A stretch of DNA of 32,589 nt from Lachnospiraceae bacterium (GTDB lineage: Bacteria; Bacillota; Clostridia; Lachnospirales; Lachnospiraceae): positions 1-32,589 of the forward strand of contig JAFXGP010000044.1 of assembly GCA_017521195.1 (NCBI GenBank), written 5' to 3'. The translations under genes and the position numbers were made by a program. Of the stretch, positions 26,709 through 30,879 are shown one piece after another. The first letter of the stretch is position 1. Every line of letters begins with the position of its first letter. The notes beneath the pieces were generated by a model, which saw nothing but the letters and a program-made list of their open reading frames with translations, was not told the DNA's origin and did not search any database.

Positions 26709-26739
26709 ACTGTACATATCTTCGTAGTATTTCTGATAG

Positions 26740-27071
26740 TCACCGCTGGACAGACGAGATTATATATTGAATAATCAATTATTTGGCATATCACCTAGCC
26801 CTGTATGTCAACAATTTTCTACAAGAACAGTATATGGTTGTTTAAGACAAGATAGTCATATCATAGATTTTGGTACTAATTACAATCATGTAATGCAAAA
26901 CCCAGATAAAAACTTTTTATTAGAAAGATTAAGAAACAGCTTCCGTTTCGTTCCTGCTACATCCTCCGATAAATTCGACCACATCTACACCGATGACGAA
27001 TTATACAAAGCGTTTATCTTCCAAAAAAGTATATTGATGTAATTGAGGCAGTCATCAAAGAAAGAAAATAA
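26740..27071 (+). pseudogene. Decayed, frameshifted ORF remnant of unknown function
   Basis: An open frame from 26740 reads NQLFGISPSPVCQQFSTRTV, then HIIDFGTNYNHVMQNPDKN and SSDKFDHIYTDDELYKAFIF. It stops at 27042 after an A6 run. Adding one A at that run restores a sensible ending, KKYIDVIEAVIKERK, with a stop at 27069-27071, so a 1-nt deletion is likely. There is no ATG or ribosome binding site at the beginning (only a TTG at 26767), so the 5' end is missing as well. I do not recognise the family. It lies between the GT4 gene and the ubiquitin-domain gene, in a stretch that also shows transposon ends. Confidence 0.5.
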
Positions 27072-27112
27072 TACTATTTATTTATTTTATTTATGTTTTA
27101 TGGTAAACTTTG

Positions 27113-27118: not shown

Positions 27119-27140
27119 ATACAAAAGGAAAATAAAATCT

Positions 27141-28130
27141 ATGAAAAAAATATTGACAATGTTACTTAGCGTATGTATGTTAGTAACACTTATGCCAATG
27201 AGTGTAAGTGCAGCGCAGATATTTGTAAAAACTTTATCTGGGAAACATATAACACTTGAAGTTGAGCCTACAGACAGGATTGAGGATGTTAAGTCAAAGA
27301 TACAAGATAAGGAAAATATATCTCCAGAACAACAATATTTGTATTTTGCAGATAAGGAGTTGGAGGATGGCAACACTTTGCAGGATTATTCTATACAAAA
27401 AGATTCCACAATCATTCTGTGTATTAACTCAAGCATATCTCCTACTACTGTTGAAAATTATGATAAATATGCAGCAATGATGGGATTAGATTTCATACTT
27501 TCAACTGGTGGTTTTGAACTTTCATCTATCATGAATGGAACTGAAGTTCTTATAAGAGGGAATGATTATATAATGGATGACGAATCAAATACAATTACAA
27601 TTAATCAGAGTTACCTTACAGCACAACCAACAGGCAGCCTAACATTGATTTTTGACATGAGTGGTGGAGTTGACCCTATGGTAGCAATTACAATACTGGA
27701 TAGTACTCCATTACAGCCGGAGCCAGAACCTGCTCCTGTTCCTACTCCTACACCAAATCAAAATAACAATAATCATAGTGTAGGAGAAGAATATACAGTG
27801 GTAGAACCTCAATTACCAAAAGAAACTGAAGCACAAATTTTTACAAGAAAACTTTTAGAGAGAGTAGCTGCAGCAAAGAATAATGATAATCTTATTGTTG
27901 ATGCAACAATTTGGAATTCATTCAGTCAAAAAACGTTAAAAAATATTATGTCAAAAGAAGGTGTGTCATACACATTTTACTATAACTATAACAAGGAATT
28001 GTTTAAAGTATTCATTCCTGCTGACTTTATGTTCACAGAAGATTGTGAATGGTATGGACCACTTAAAATGGTTGCATTATTCGGAAAAACACCAGTAACA
28101 AAAGAAGAATTACATAAAGTAATTGACTAA
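27141..28130 (+). CDS. Secreted ubiquitin-domain protein with X2-type module
   Basis: A 329-residue exported protein. Residues 1-24/25 are a classical signal peptide ([19 protein letters not shown], then VSA-A). Residues 26-95 are a ubiquitin domain: [55 protein letters not shown]. By eye about 49 of 68 positions match eukaryotic ubiquitin, and all seven lysines (K6, 11, 27, 29, 33, 48, 63) are kept. R42, I44, G47, H68, V70, R72 and the C-terminal GG are changed or absent. Residues 97-188 resemble an X2 (CBM_X2) Ig-like module ([26 protein letters not shown]). A Pro/Asn linker (192-211) leads to an unrecognised domain (about 225-329) with WNSFSQKTL and [13 protein letters not shown]. No LPxTG or transmembrane anchor is visible. 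The ATG at 27141 is chosen because the signal peptide starts there; AAAGGA lies 11 nt before. Confidence 0.9.
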
Positions 28131-28238
28131 TTATCAAAAGGCTATCCTTTCCGAAAAGATTGAATGTAAGCGACTAATAAAATAGTGCCTATCAAATTAA
28201 ATGGAGATGGATTATAATACCACCTCCAACAATAGTTT

Positions 28239-29833
28239 CTATTTACATTGTTCTTGTACGTCCGTTGACCAGGGCATTAAATCATCCAGTTCTTCTGGAT
28301 GTCTCTGCCACTCTTTACTTTGCATATACAAAAGCAAATGCCGGAGATACGCATAAACATTGAGACCATTCGCTTTAGCAGTCTCAATTAAGCTATATTG
28401 AGTATTCCGGCTTTCTTTGAGCCAGGGGGCTCTGCCGCACGAGAATATTCACTATATACTGCCGCAGATGCAGATGCTCCTTTTGGAGTGTCCGCAAAAA
28501 GCCAGTTTTTACGTCCCACAGTAAAAGGACGAATGGCATTTTCTGCTGCATTGTTTGATAACGAACATCTTCCATCAAGAAGATAGTTCTCCATATATGG
28601 TTTTTGATTCTGTGCATAAGTAATTGCTTTTCCAAGAGCAGAACCTTTTAATGCATTTATAGAATCAAGCCAACACCAAAAAGCCTCAAGAATCGGTTTT
28701 TCCAGTTCGAGATGCTTACAGAATCTTTCTTCAAAAGATAGGTCTTTTAGGTTGTCCTCTATGGCAAAGAGTTTATTGCAGTATTGAAGTCCTATTTCAG
28801 CGCTGGTGAGTCCGGCATCTTTGGCCTTCTTTGCAGGAATTGCTTCTACAAACTTTCGCCTCAGATGGGCCCAGCAACCTATACGGGTAATACCACTTAA
28901 CTTGTTGTATCCGGAATACCCATCGGAATGAACATATCCATGGAAATCTTTTAGGTAAGTGGCAGCATGATTGCCGTTTCTGGAAGGTTGGTAATCGAAA
29001 AGAATGATTGGATTCTTTCCATCATTACCACTTCGGTATAACCACATGTATGATTTCGTTTGTGGCTGTTTCCCTTCTTCTTTGAGAACCTGGACAGGAG
29101 TTTCATCACAGTGGATAACATCCCGTTTCATAAGTTCTTTTCGTAGATGATTTACAACAGGAATTAAATGATCCTCGCTACTACGGATAATCCAGTTGGC
29201 CATGGTAGAACGGCTAAGTCCAATACCGATTTGTTCCCCGTCCTTTTCCTGTCTGTACAACGGAACACTGTTTACGTATTTCTGGTACATAACACGGGCA
29301 ACAGAACTTGGAGATGCAAGTGAATGATTCAATACGGATTTAGGAACATTAGCCTTTTGAATAAAAGGTTTGCCACTATGTTTACAGGCAGGACATTCAC
29401 ATGCCTGTCTCATATACCGGATGATTTTTACCTGGGCTGGAATATATTCCAATTCATCACGTACTTTGACAAAGCCGATTTCTTTGAGTGTAGAGCCGCA
29501 CTGTTTACAGAACATGTCATCAGGATGAACCAGACATGGGAATTCTTCCACCGGAAGATCTTTTAATAATTCTTCCCGTTTAGTTTTAGAATTCTTTTTA
29601 TAGTAACATCCTTTTCGTTCGATAAGTGGCTCAGAAACATCAGCATTTGCTTCTACTTCAGCTTCATTAAAAAGAGACAGTTGTCCTTCGAGTTGCGAAG
29701 AAGTTTTTTCACTGGATGATCCAAACTTTTACTTACGAAGTAAAAGAAGCATTTCGGTGAGATTACTTACCTGATTCTGTAAGTCCATTATGGTGTTTTC
29801 AAGGTGCTTAATATAGGCATCCTTTTCGTTCAT
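28239..29833 (-). pseudogene. tnpC: IS66 transposase TnpC, disrupted by a nonsense codon and a miniature insertion
   Basis: The reading begins at the ATG 29831-29833 with a leucine-rich coiled coil (HLENTIMDLQNQVSNLTEML). It is broken at codon 35 by TAA (29729-29731) in the place where relatives read LRKxKFGSSSEKT. The rest is open: zinc-finger CKQCGS and CECPACKHS, catalytic DDE pieces IHCDETPVQV, HSDGYSGY and NNAAENAIRPF. Near the end, 53 bp plus a 6-bp duplication at 28393-28457 shift the frame. Without it the protein would continue LIETAKANGLNVYAYLRHLL to the native stop TAG at 28239-28241. Reconstructed length is about 511 residues, normal for IS66. The enzyme cannot be functional as written. 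Confidence 0.92.
28393..28457. repeat. 53-bp miniature insertion with terminal inverted repeats and 6-bp target duplication
   Basis: Inside tnpC a 53-bp segment (28399-28451) is flanked by a perfect direct repeat CTATAT (28393-28398 and 28452-28457). Its ends are imperfect inverted repeats: TGAGTATTC at the left, TGAATATTC read inward from the right (8 of 9). The interior contains a GAGCC/GGCTC hairpin and is richer in G+C than the host gene. Removal of 59 bp exactly restores the transposase frame. It has the anatomy of a very small MITE; no second copy was noticed in this window. Confidence 0.8.
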
Positions 29834-29836
29834 TTA

Positions 29837-29875
29837 TGGTATAATTCCTTTGCTTTTTATACTCTAATTATACCA
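29837..29875 (-). promoter_or_regulatory. Inverted repeat covering the tnpC ribosome binding site
   Basis: A perfect 10-bp inverted repeat TGGTATAATT ... AATTATACCA spans the leader just before the tnpC ATG. On the minus strand its upstream arm is also an extended -10 (TGGTATAAT), and its downstream arm abuts AAAGG, the likely ribosome binding site. In a longer transcript the hairpin could restrain tnpC translation; in a short transcript starting within it, it would not form. Confidence 0.45.
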
Positions 29876-29925
29876 CAAAACATGCGAAAAACCCAGTAAA
29901 ATCAAGGCTTTTGGAATATTTATAA

Positions 29926-30281
29926 CTAACAAAAATCAGCCTTTTGCGCCGGTTTGATAGATTGTTTTTGTTCTATCTGAAGACCTTCCATCAGCCATCG
30001 GAATTGCTGCCGGGTAATAGGTTTTACTTCCGATTTATCTTTAGGCATTTGAAGGAGCCGTTTTCTAAACGTTTATAGAGAAGAACAAATCCGTCACCTT
30101 CCCAGAGAAGAGCCTTCATACGGGTTCTGTTTCTTCCGCAAAAAAGAAACAGGGTGTTGGAAAAAGGATCCAGTTGAAACTGTTGCTGTACTATGGCAGC
30201 TAATCCATCTATGGATTTTCGCATGTCCGTATAACCACATGCGATATAAATATTTTCAGCAACAGTAATATCGCCTAGCAT
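29926..30281 (-). pseudogene. tnpB: IS66 accessory protein TnpB, frameshifted
   Basis: The frame starts MLGDITVAENIYIACGYTDM and continues RKSIDGLAAIVQQQF, GRNRTRMKALLWEGDGFVLL and YKRLENGSFK, the standard TnpB (PF05717) sequence. It then departs into an early stop at 30024. Inserting one G near 30044-30047 (AAATGCC to AAATGGCC) restores WPKDKSEVKPITRQQFRWLM and a native end at 29926-29928, giving about 118 residues, the family norm. Thus a 1-nt deletion has inactivated it. It overlaps tnpA by 7 nt, as usual in this family. TnpB is required for IS66 transposition. Confidence 0.9.
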
Positions 30282-30637
30282 ATACTCTGCAGGGCCAGAA
30301 GCACTGCCTGAATGGTCTGCTGGCTGGTGCCTTCCCTGATTTCAAGTGTTGCCTGGGGAAGTTTTATAATAACAGCGGCCCTGGTATCAGGTATAGGAGT
30401 GGTTACTTCCAGTTTTTGAAACACTGCAGGTTTAGTCTCTTCTAAAGTTATTGGTACAGGAAGCTTTGAAAGTTCTTCCTCTCGTATCTTTTTAAGATAG
30501 TAGTAATAAGTCTGCTCCCTAAATCCGTGTTGGGTACACCAAGTTCGAACAGGAAGACCACTTTGTTGACATTCCATAATTAATTTTTTCCATTGTTCGC
30601 GTCGGAACTGAACTTTGGCTTTTGTAACCTGATCCAT
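30275..30637 (-). CDS. tnpA: IS66 accessory protein TnpA
   Basis: A 120-residue small DNA-binding protein of IS66 elements. The N-terminal half has REQWKKLIMECQQSGLPVRT and WCTQHGFREQTYYYYLKKIR, the helix-turn-helix typical of this family. The C-terminal part, AAVIIKLPQATLEIREGTS and IQAVLLALQSIC, is the conserved tail. GGAGG with 8-nt spacing selects the ATG at 30635-30637 over an in-frame ATG 15 nt upstream. It is the only undamaged gene of the element. Confidence 0.92.
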   Translation of the reverse strand: MDQVTKAKVQFRREQWKKLIMECQQSGLPVRTWCTQHGFREQTYYYYLKKIREEELSKLPVPITLEETKPAVFQKLEVTTPIPDTRAAVIIKLPQATLEIREGTSQQTIQAVLLALQSIC

Positions 30638-30879
30638 AATAATTGCCTCCATTTTAGTCTAATAACTTGAAAAACTATAACTCAAAAAACTCTAAAGTTA
30701 TATGGAGACTATTATCTCATGGATTATAACTGTGCCGAAAGGCATCATTTTATTAATCGCTTACAATGAACTAAAACCACATCCTCAAAACAGTTATTAT
30801 TTTTATGATATGAAGGGTGATACATGGTAAGCGGCTTAATAGTCAAGATGCTCATGTTTGAACGATTACTTTAAAACGT

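Follow-up and report, generated by a model that had tools for sequence, protein, structure and literature searches.

A predicted secreted ubiquitin fusion of a Lachnospiraceae bacterium groups with ubiquitins of several bacterial phyla and may act as an extracellular binding module

The 32,589-nucleotide stretch of Lachnospiraceae DNA analyzed here (the window) carries a gene for a predicted exported protein in which a ubiquitin domain directly follows a signal peptide and is fused to further domains. The domain belongs to a group of 40 bacterial ubiquitins which share a signature of eight residues and are found in several phyla. Because the domain appears unsuited to conjugation, because export and, in most relatives, anchoring are predicted, and because the ubiquitins of the group are under selection, have given up their E1 contacts and are spread across phyla, we favor the reading that the domain is a ubiquitin turned to use outside the cell as a binding module, with a probability of roughly 45%.

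The coding sequence (P0001, 329 aa) occupies positions 27141..28130 of the + strand, on which all parts of the gene given below are also located. Open reading frame and Pfam analyses confirmed the signal peptide, ubiquitin domain and X2 module that a first-pass annotation, made from the DNA letters, had proposed for this region. An alternative in-frame ATG at 27093 would give a 345-aa product; the start at 27141 was favored because a signal-peptide-like leader begins there and is preceded by an AAGGA box (27125-27129). The predicted signal peptide (residues 1-24, 27141..27212) consists of an n-region with KK and a hydrophobic stretch and has alanine at position -1. Cleavage is predicted between VSA and AQIF and would release a 305-aa mature fusion protein; in the leader as read by eye, it places Ala25 where ubiquitin has Met1. 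By sequence rule, the leader would thus be cleaved right at ubiquitin position 1, as in the secreted ubiquitin BfUbb of Bacteroides fragilis. This agrees with the earlier proposal of a mature start near Gln2 of ubiquitin, and export of the protein is supported as a prediction. A single ubiquitin match was found in the genome from which the window derives.

The ubiquitin domain spans residues 25-96 (27213..27428). Pfam family PF00240 matched residues 27-96 with E=1.8e-22 and 79.3 bits (cut-off 25.4), and 49/72 positions are identical to human ubiquitin. The 49 matches counted by eye in the first-pass annotation were exact, over a stretch slightly longer than the 68 positions given there. Lysine occupies all seven ubiquitin lysine positions, as had been noticed. 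An AlphaFold2 model calculated from a 20-row ubiquitin alignment shows a beta-grasp ubiquitin domain, with ten-residue block mean pLDDT values of 95-97 over residues 31-90, so that the fold presupposed by the annotation was recovered; model confidence was low for the X2, linker and C-terminal parts. Together with the Pfam score and the identity to human ubiquitin, these results support a true ubiquitin far nearer to the eukaryotic protein than to the ThiS/MoaD folds. Relative to human ubiquitin the domain carries the substitutions R42Y, I44Y, H68I, V70C and R72N, three of which (Y44, I68, C70) alter the greater part of the Ile44 patch; Leu8 is retained. The chain continues past position 72 into the X2 module and has no Gly-Gly. 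The predicted loss of Arg42, Arg72, Ile44 and the Gly-Gly end was thereby confirmed. Since Arg42, Ile44, Val70 and Arg72 are replaced and Gly-Gly is missing, the known conjugation chemistry should be unable to use this domain, and the earlier view that it is unsuited as a conjugated modifier (Tyr42, Asn72, no Gly-Gly, fused C-terminus) is supported. A Pfam scan of 24 of the proteins encoded in the window found no E1-, E2- or JAB-type gene beside the ubiquitin gene.

The C-terminus had been described as fused to further domains; these are exactly one X2 module and one unnamed C-terminal domain. The X2 module (CBM_X2, PF03442) covers residues 101-183 (27441..27689; E=2.8e-14, 53.4 bits, cut-off 28.9) and gave no sequence match in the PDB up to E=1. 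X2 matches also occur in the relatives L003, L017, L020, L021, L022, L026 and L030, with a score above cut-off in L021 only. A linker rich in Pro, Thr and Asn follows at residues 186-217 (27696..27791), with low pLDDT, and leads to the C-terminal domain with the motif WYGPLKM (residues 230-329, 27828..28127). This last third of the protein had no match in Pfam, none in NCBIfam and no credible match in the PDB. It was found in 7 of 200 sampled Lachnospiraceae genomes, the window's own and six others, and the proteins that contain its relatives look secreted; one of them also has LysM and another leucine-rich repeats. In L080, L082, L077 and L081 it appears as a recurrent Lachnospiraceae C-terminal domain with a WYGPL or YYGP motif; the copies scanned, which did not include L081, gave no NCBIfam match.

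Flanked by a glycosyltransferase gene and an rmlA-like gene, the ubiquitin gene lies at the margin of a large polysaccharide locus (809-25361, - strand) that encodes three MBOAT acyltransferases, a CotH kinase, a VTC domain, WecG/TagA, a GT2 and a GT87-like protein. An IS66-family insertion sequence with terminal inverted repeats (28166..30764; PF03050, PF05717) begins 35 bp beyond the stop codon. DNA comparison with the congener genome G004 revealed, just upstream of the gene, a 40-bp piece (26710..26749) that matches the 3' end of the congener rmlB-like gene with 97.5% identity and is read as a recombination scar. The two rml-like genes are presumably rmlA and rmlB. In G004 the same glycosyltransferase (86% DNA identity) and rmlA-like gene (90%) flank different, unrelated genes, and a profile search of six congener genomes, 72-89% complete, found a ubiquitin match in none of them. 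The gene is therefore located in a variable island. The homologous interval of G004 (L099:886-6787) contains a large open reading frame that looks like a metallophosphoesterase and other genes, one of which we take to be ThyX-like. Assembly contamination was considered and is not likely: other genomes of the family also have the C-terminal domain, and congeners share the glycosyltransferase gene and the rmlA-like gene on either side.

To find relatives, 84,980 genomes were scanned for six peptides taken from the window, which yielded 55 loci; a plasmid scan added two more. A phage collection contained no relative, nor did viral contigs, for which the window domain served as query so that close relatives only were covered; carriage by phages or viruses was rejected on these results. 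In a profile search of whole genomes, with the window's own genome counted each time, ubiquitin was found in 2/61 genomes of relatives, 7/397 of the family, 6/391 of the class (including the marginal L071) and 2/398 of the phylum. The resulting set comprises 69 ubiquitin domains, window included; L023 (frame breaks), L057 (5' truncated), L071 (marginal) and L049 (no start found) as well as the duplicates L001, L060, L061, L066 and L070 were left out of the counts of domains.

Gln57 is present in 40 of the 69 domains, the window among them, together with most of eight changes relative to human ubiquitin (T12H, S20T, T22R, N25D, R54N, S57Q, N60S, E64D). We refer to these 40 as the KH clade. All eight residues are found in 22 of its rows, seven in 10, six in 6 and five in 2; the 29 other rows score zero (22), one (4) or two (3), and human ubiquitin scores zero. 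Thr20 and Gln57 are constant (40/40 each) and His12 and Asp64 nearly so (38/40 each). The window domain carries all eight, and none of the 14/72 positions at which it differs from the KH consensus belongs to the signature. According to their record titles, the KH rows derive from Bacillota (22), Pseudomonadota (10), Bacteroidota (4) and Actinomycetota (2), plus the window and, as the odd one out, a metagenome-assembled genome (MAG) labelled Nomurabacteria; several titles give goat, deer or buffalo as the animal and the caecum or rectum as the site. A KH-type ubiquitin of a Syntrophomonadaceae MAG (L023:5929-6258) has its frame broken after Gln62; either the gene has decayed or the assembly is faulty there.

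The 29 domains outside the clade, with Bacteroidota, Pseudomonadota, Verrucomicrobiota, Lentisphaerota and archaeal MAGs among their sources, may represent separate captures; some are identical to human ubiquitin at 60-70 of 72 positions. Four neighboring stand-alone genes for ubiquitin with signal peptide were observed in Pedobacter cryoconitis (L041:5198-6597) and three in Flavobacterium sp. 270 (L050:4708-6234), a BfUbb-like layout. Two Euryarchaeota MAGs (L044:80-1702 and L052:4426-6036) encode a signal-peptide ubiquitin followed by about 430 more residues, to which a Pfam scan of L044 gave no name. Gly-Gly is retained in only 2/69 domains: in a Clostridia genome (L067:1417-3213) a secreted ubiquitin keeps LRLRGG and continues into List-Bact, fn3 and SLH domains, and L045 has no signal peptide.

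For the trees L059, L056, L011, L007 and L036 were additionally omitted. A quick IQ-TREE run with 65 rows and all 73 columns recovered the KH domains as one clade (SH-aLRT 97), and FastTree grouped them with a support of 0.43. Without the eight signature columns the clade was not recovered and needed 10 changes; its monophyly therefore depends on the signature. Identity to human ubiquitin reaches 63/72 within the KH clade and 70/72 among the other domains, which supports a eukaryotic ultimate origin of the domain. In its last transfer the window domain most likely came from a bacterium, because the tree places it among ubiquitins of bacteria from other phyla (SH-aLRT 97 when the signature columns are included). 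Hence, the transfer from a eukaryote proposed in the first-pass annotation can be retained for the ultimate origin, not for the last step: a direct transfer from a eukaryote into the window was rejected, as the eight derived residues are common to bacteria of other phyla. Of the idea that the domain could be part of an old, vertically inherited bacterial family, the bacterial family was found and vertical inheritance was not.

Export is predicted for nearly all KH relatives. Ubiquitin position 1 is directly preceded by Ala in 35/39 and by Gly in 4/39 of them, and 37/39 leaders passed a simple signal-peptide rule; L017, with 149 residues in frame ahead of ubiquitin, and L043 failed (L059, L033, L040 and L045, none of them KH, were additionally omitted from the leader counts). 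Across the relatives ubiquitin is fused to many unrelated scaffolds, and the parts behind it are specific to the lineage. Anchors are predicted in 25 of the 35 KH proteins that are complete at the 3' end, window included: a sortase-like motif, read from the tail, plus a C-terminal membrane segment in 12, SLH domains in 3, a membrane segment alone in 1 and autotransporter-type barrels in 9, all from Alphaproteobacteria. The barrels of L004 and L019 scored above the Pfam cut-off, those of L007, L011, L012, L015, L016 and L024 were assigned by similarity to L004, and the assignment of L006 is weakly supported. The tails of 3/35 presumably are type IX sorting signals. No recognized anchor was found in the remaining 7/35, among them the window protein, in which neither sequence inspection nor Pfam revealed a sortase motif, SLH domain or membrane anchor. 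Most complete KH relatives are thus predicted to be tethered to the envelope.

The neighborhoods of the 57 loci and the window were compared for encoded proteins of at least 90 aa. No conserved neighbor was found beyond near-identical loci; the recurring families are sortase kin (a sortase gene adjoins L021, and sortase kin adjoin L020 and L026), a family resembling ABC transporters, present in 5 loci, and two families present in 3 loci, which look unrelated. An operon partner or immunity gene in this size range was therefore rejected.

Selection was analyzed in 17 pairs chosen by the author. L004 and L015, whose silent sites are saturated, have 90% identity in ubiquitin and 31% in the rest of the chain, and L034 and L036 share 99% in ubiquitin and 63% elsewhere, with a dN/dS of 0.022. 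Ubiquitin is not better kept in the close pairs L004/L007 (96 and 98%) and L004/L011 (94 and 94%), for which dN/dS was 0.13 and 0.25, respectively. For the majority of distant pairs, ubiquitin is thus the conserved part, kept by purifying selection, whereas the remaining chain diverges.

Surface patches of ubiquitin were defined according to PMC5135002. Their conservation was compared with that of random surface sets in 28 non-redundant KH rows, the combined patches being picked after a first test with the author's own patches. An assumed list of core positions was excluded from the surface sets; in the first test these positions formed the most conserved class (P=0.0003). The combined Phe4 and Asp58 patches were more conserved than random sets (P=0.0013) and the combined Ile44 and Ile36 patches more variable (P=0.0014), residues 42 and 72 being the most variable (P=0.0008). 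Single patches gave P-values of 0.057 (Ile44), 0.053 (Phe4), 0.009 (Asp58) and 0.0095 (Ile36), and 22 non-redundant non-KH sequences showed a like but weaker trend. Over all 40 KH rows, Gln2 and Phe4 are found in 39/40 each; among the variable sites, Arg42 is found in 10/40, Ile44 in 24/40, Val70 in 16/40 and Arg72 in 6/40.

The loci had been found through exact peptides covering the Asp58 patch and Thr14, and search bias was therefore tested. At the level of single sites, the conservation held in rows found through the respective other peptide. Rows matched via EDGNTLQD have His12 in 26/28 and Thr20 in 28/28; those matched via KHITLEVE have Gln57 and Asp58 in 29/29 each, Asn54 in 25/29 and Asp64 in 28/29. 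When each patch was tested in rows matched through the other peptide, P was 0.064 for Asp58 (20 rows) and 0.084 for Phe4 (18 rows); in the two subsets, greater variability of Ile44 and Ile36 gave P=0.085 and P=0.0019, and residues 42 and 72 remained strong (P=0.0005 and P=0.0025). The patch contrast is thus weaker under this control, and residues 42/72 alone stay strong. In view of these permutations we regard loss of the E1 contacts in the KH clade as firm, a variable Ile44/Ile36 side as likely and a conserved Phe4/Asp58 side as suggestive. Residues 20-25 and 54-60 of ubiquitin pack together; hence, part of the KH signature may be structural.

For the extracellular binding module favored here, signal peptidase would remove the leader and leave a ubiquitin fold whose first residue is the natural one or its neighbor. 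The remainder of the chain would carry the ubiquitin, as a cell-surface anchor in the relatives; in the window protein the X2 module, linker and C-terminal domain may either keep it in the envelope or set it free. The exported domain, unable to be conjugated, would then bind an extracellular partner, which may belong to a competitor, the host or a protist, and it would do so via the side with Gln2, Phe4, His12 and Thr14 and Asn54, Thr55, Gln57 and Asp58, not via the Ile44 side. More tentatively, the KH proteins could be horizontally mobile surface ligands, derived from captured eukaryotic ubiquitin and spread across phyla, which share a receptor in animal guts. In that case, the captured ubiquitin would have kept its N terminus and the Phe4/Asp58 side, gained a fixed bacterial signature and lost the E1 contacts and the tail, and its display would depend on sortase anchors, S-layer domains or autotransporter barrels. 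Ubiquitin is usually seen as an intracellular modifier of eukaryotes; if the reading is true, it has been reused as an extracellular ligand. Such a role would link to the debated extracellular ubiquitin receptors (PMC10892293).

Rather doubtful is an antagonistic function, in which the ubiquitin domain would be toxic to rival bacteria that it reaches through cell contact or once released. A precedent is BfUbb, a ubiquitin with signal peptide and without Gly-Gly, which antagonizes further strains of B. fragilis and apparently requires no immunity protein (PMC5705921). The ubiquitin genes are accessory and patchy, located in a variable site and in one case on a mobilizable plasmid, and the tandem stand-alone copies of Pedobacter and Flavobacterium and the lack of a conserved neighbor of at least 90 aa fit such a function as well; smaller immunity genes would, however, escape a survey of that size range, and the KH proteins are mostly larger and have predicted anchors, unlike a diffusible protein of 76 aa. 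In a cell extract BfUbb also blocks ubiquitination, and in vitro it forms a bond with E1, on which it is proposed to act via its C-terminal cysteine (PMC3352274). Together with the close similarity to ubiquitin, this favors an exported protein that inhibits host E1, E2 or deubiquitinases or serves them as a decoy, an option that we nevertheless judge very improbable. The window protein ends without such a cysteine, variability is highest at residues 42 and 72, and the window domain has lost most of its Ile44 patch; moreover, the tethering predicted for relatives would keep ubiquitin outside host cells, and no route of delivery to the cytosol was seen. The action on host ubiquitin machinery proposed in the first-pass annotation thus stands weakly: ubiquitin similarity and BfUbb speak for it, the variable residues 42/72, the variable Ile44/Ile36 side and the predicted tethering against it.

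Ubiquitin could also be an inert module, a rigid, protease-resistant cap which tips surface proteins and has no specific partner. The many unrelated scaffolds, the absence of a conserved neighbor, the conservation of the core above all other classes and the weaker surface contrast under the search-bias control are consistent with such a cap. Gln2 and Phe4 are exposed in ubiquitin, and their near constancy in the KH clade, like the invariance of Gln57 and Asp58 in rows matched through the other peptide, is not obviously required by the fold; furthermore, the 90% ubiquitin identity between L004 and L015 despite saturated silent sites seems beyond the demand of the fold alone. We regard an inert cap as unlikely. 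Least probable is self-mimicry toward the host immune system, or a role as autoantigen, with ubiquitin as a surface disguise. Predicted surface or secreted display and an identity to human ubiquitin of up to 63/72 would suit a disguise, but the non-host residues at positions 12, 20, 57 and 64 are near constant across phyla, the opposite of tracking a host sequence.

The extracellular binding module suggested here can be compared with several known systems. Like eukaryotic ubiquitin (PF00240), the window domain has the ubiquitin fold, 49/72 shared residues and seven lysines; it differs in its predicted export, the missing Gly-Gly and the replacement of Arg42, Ile44, Val70 and Arg72. With other CBM_X2 proteins the window protein shares an above-cut-off score, and it has neither an enzyme nor a scaffoldin domain. 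An entry annotated as 'ubiquitin family protein' from Ruminococcus albus 7 (WP_013483628.1), also of the Clostridia, resembles it in a leader abutting ubiquitin and a C-terminal fusion; it is unlike the window protein in lacking the KH signature and in being encoded on a mobilizable plasmid. On this plasmid, pRUMAL01, the gene for the secreted ubiquitin fusion (L058:4935-5675) lies among small hypothetical genes and near a transposase.

The closest parallel is BfUbb, among bacterial copies the one functionally studied in the literature found. Its reported target is a periplasmic prolyl isomerase, and a Nature Microbiology paper deals with competition by BfUbb. In both BfUbb and the window protein ubiquitin directly follows the signal peptide, the mature protein is predicted to start at position 1 and Gly-Gly is absent; both genes are located in a variable locus, are found in some strains only and belong to gut bacteria. 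BfUbb is a stand-alone mature protein of 76 aa with a C-terminal cysteine, the window protein a 305-aa fusion with an X2 module and a C-terminal domain; the latter also has the KH signature and an altered Ile44 patch, a comparison for which BfUbb was taken by description, not by sequence. The different architecture claimed in the first-pass annotation thus holds with respect to BfUbb, but the protein is not a one-off, as it belongs to a bacterial group of 40 sequences. Titles and abstract openings, with most subscription papers outside this scope, revealed literature on BfUbb and none describing the KH family. Secreted bacterial ubiquitin is thus already known, and the window protein possibly makes a case for a wider, unrecognized class.
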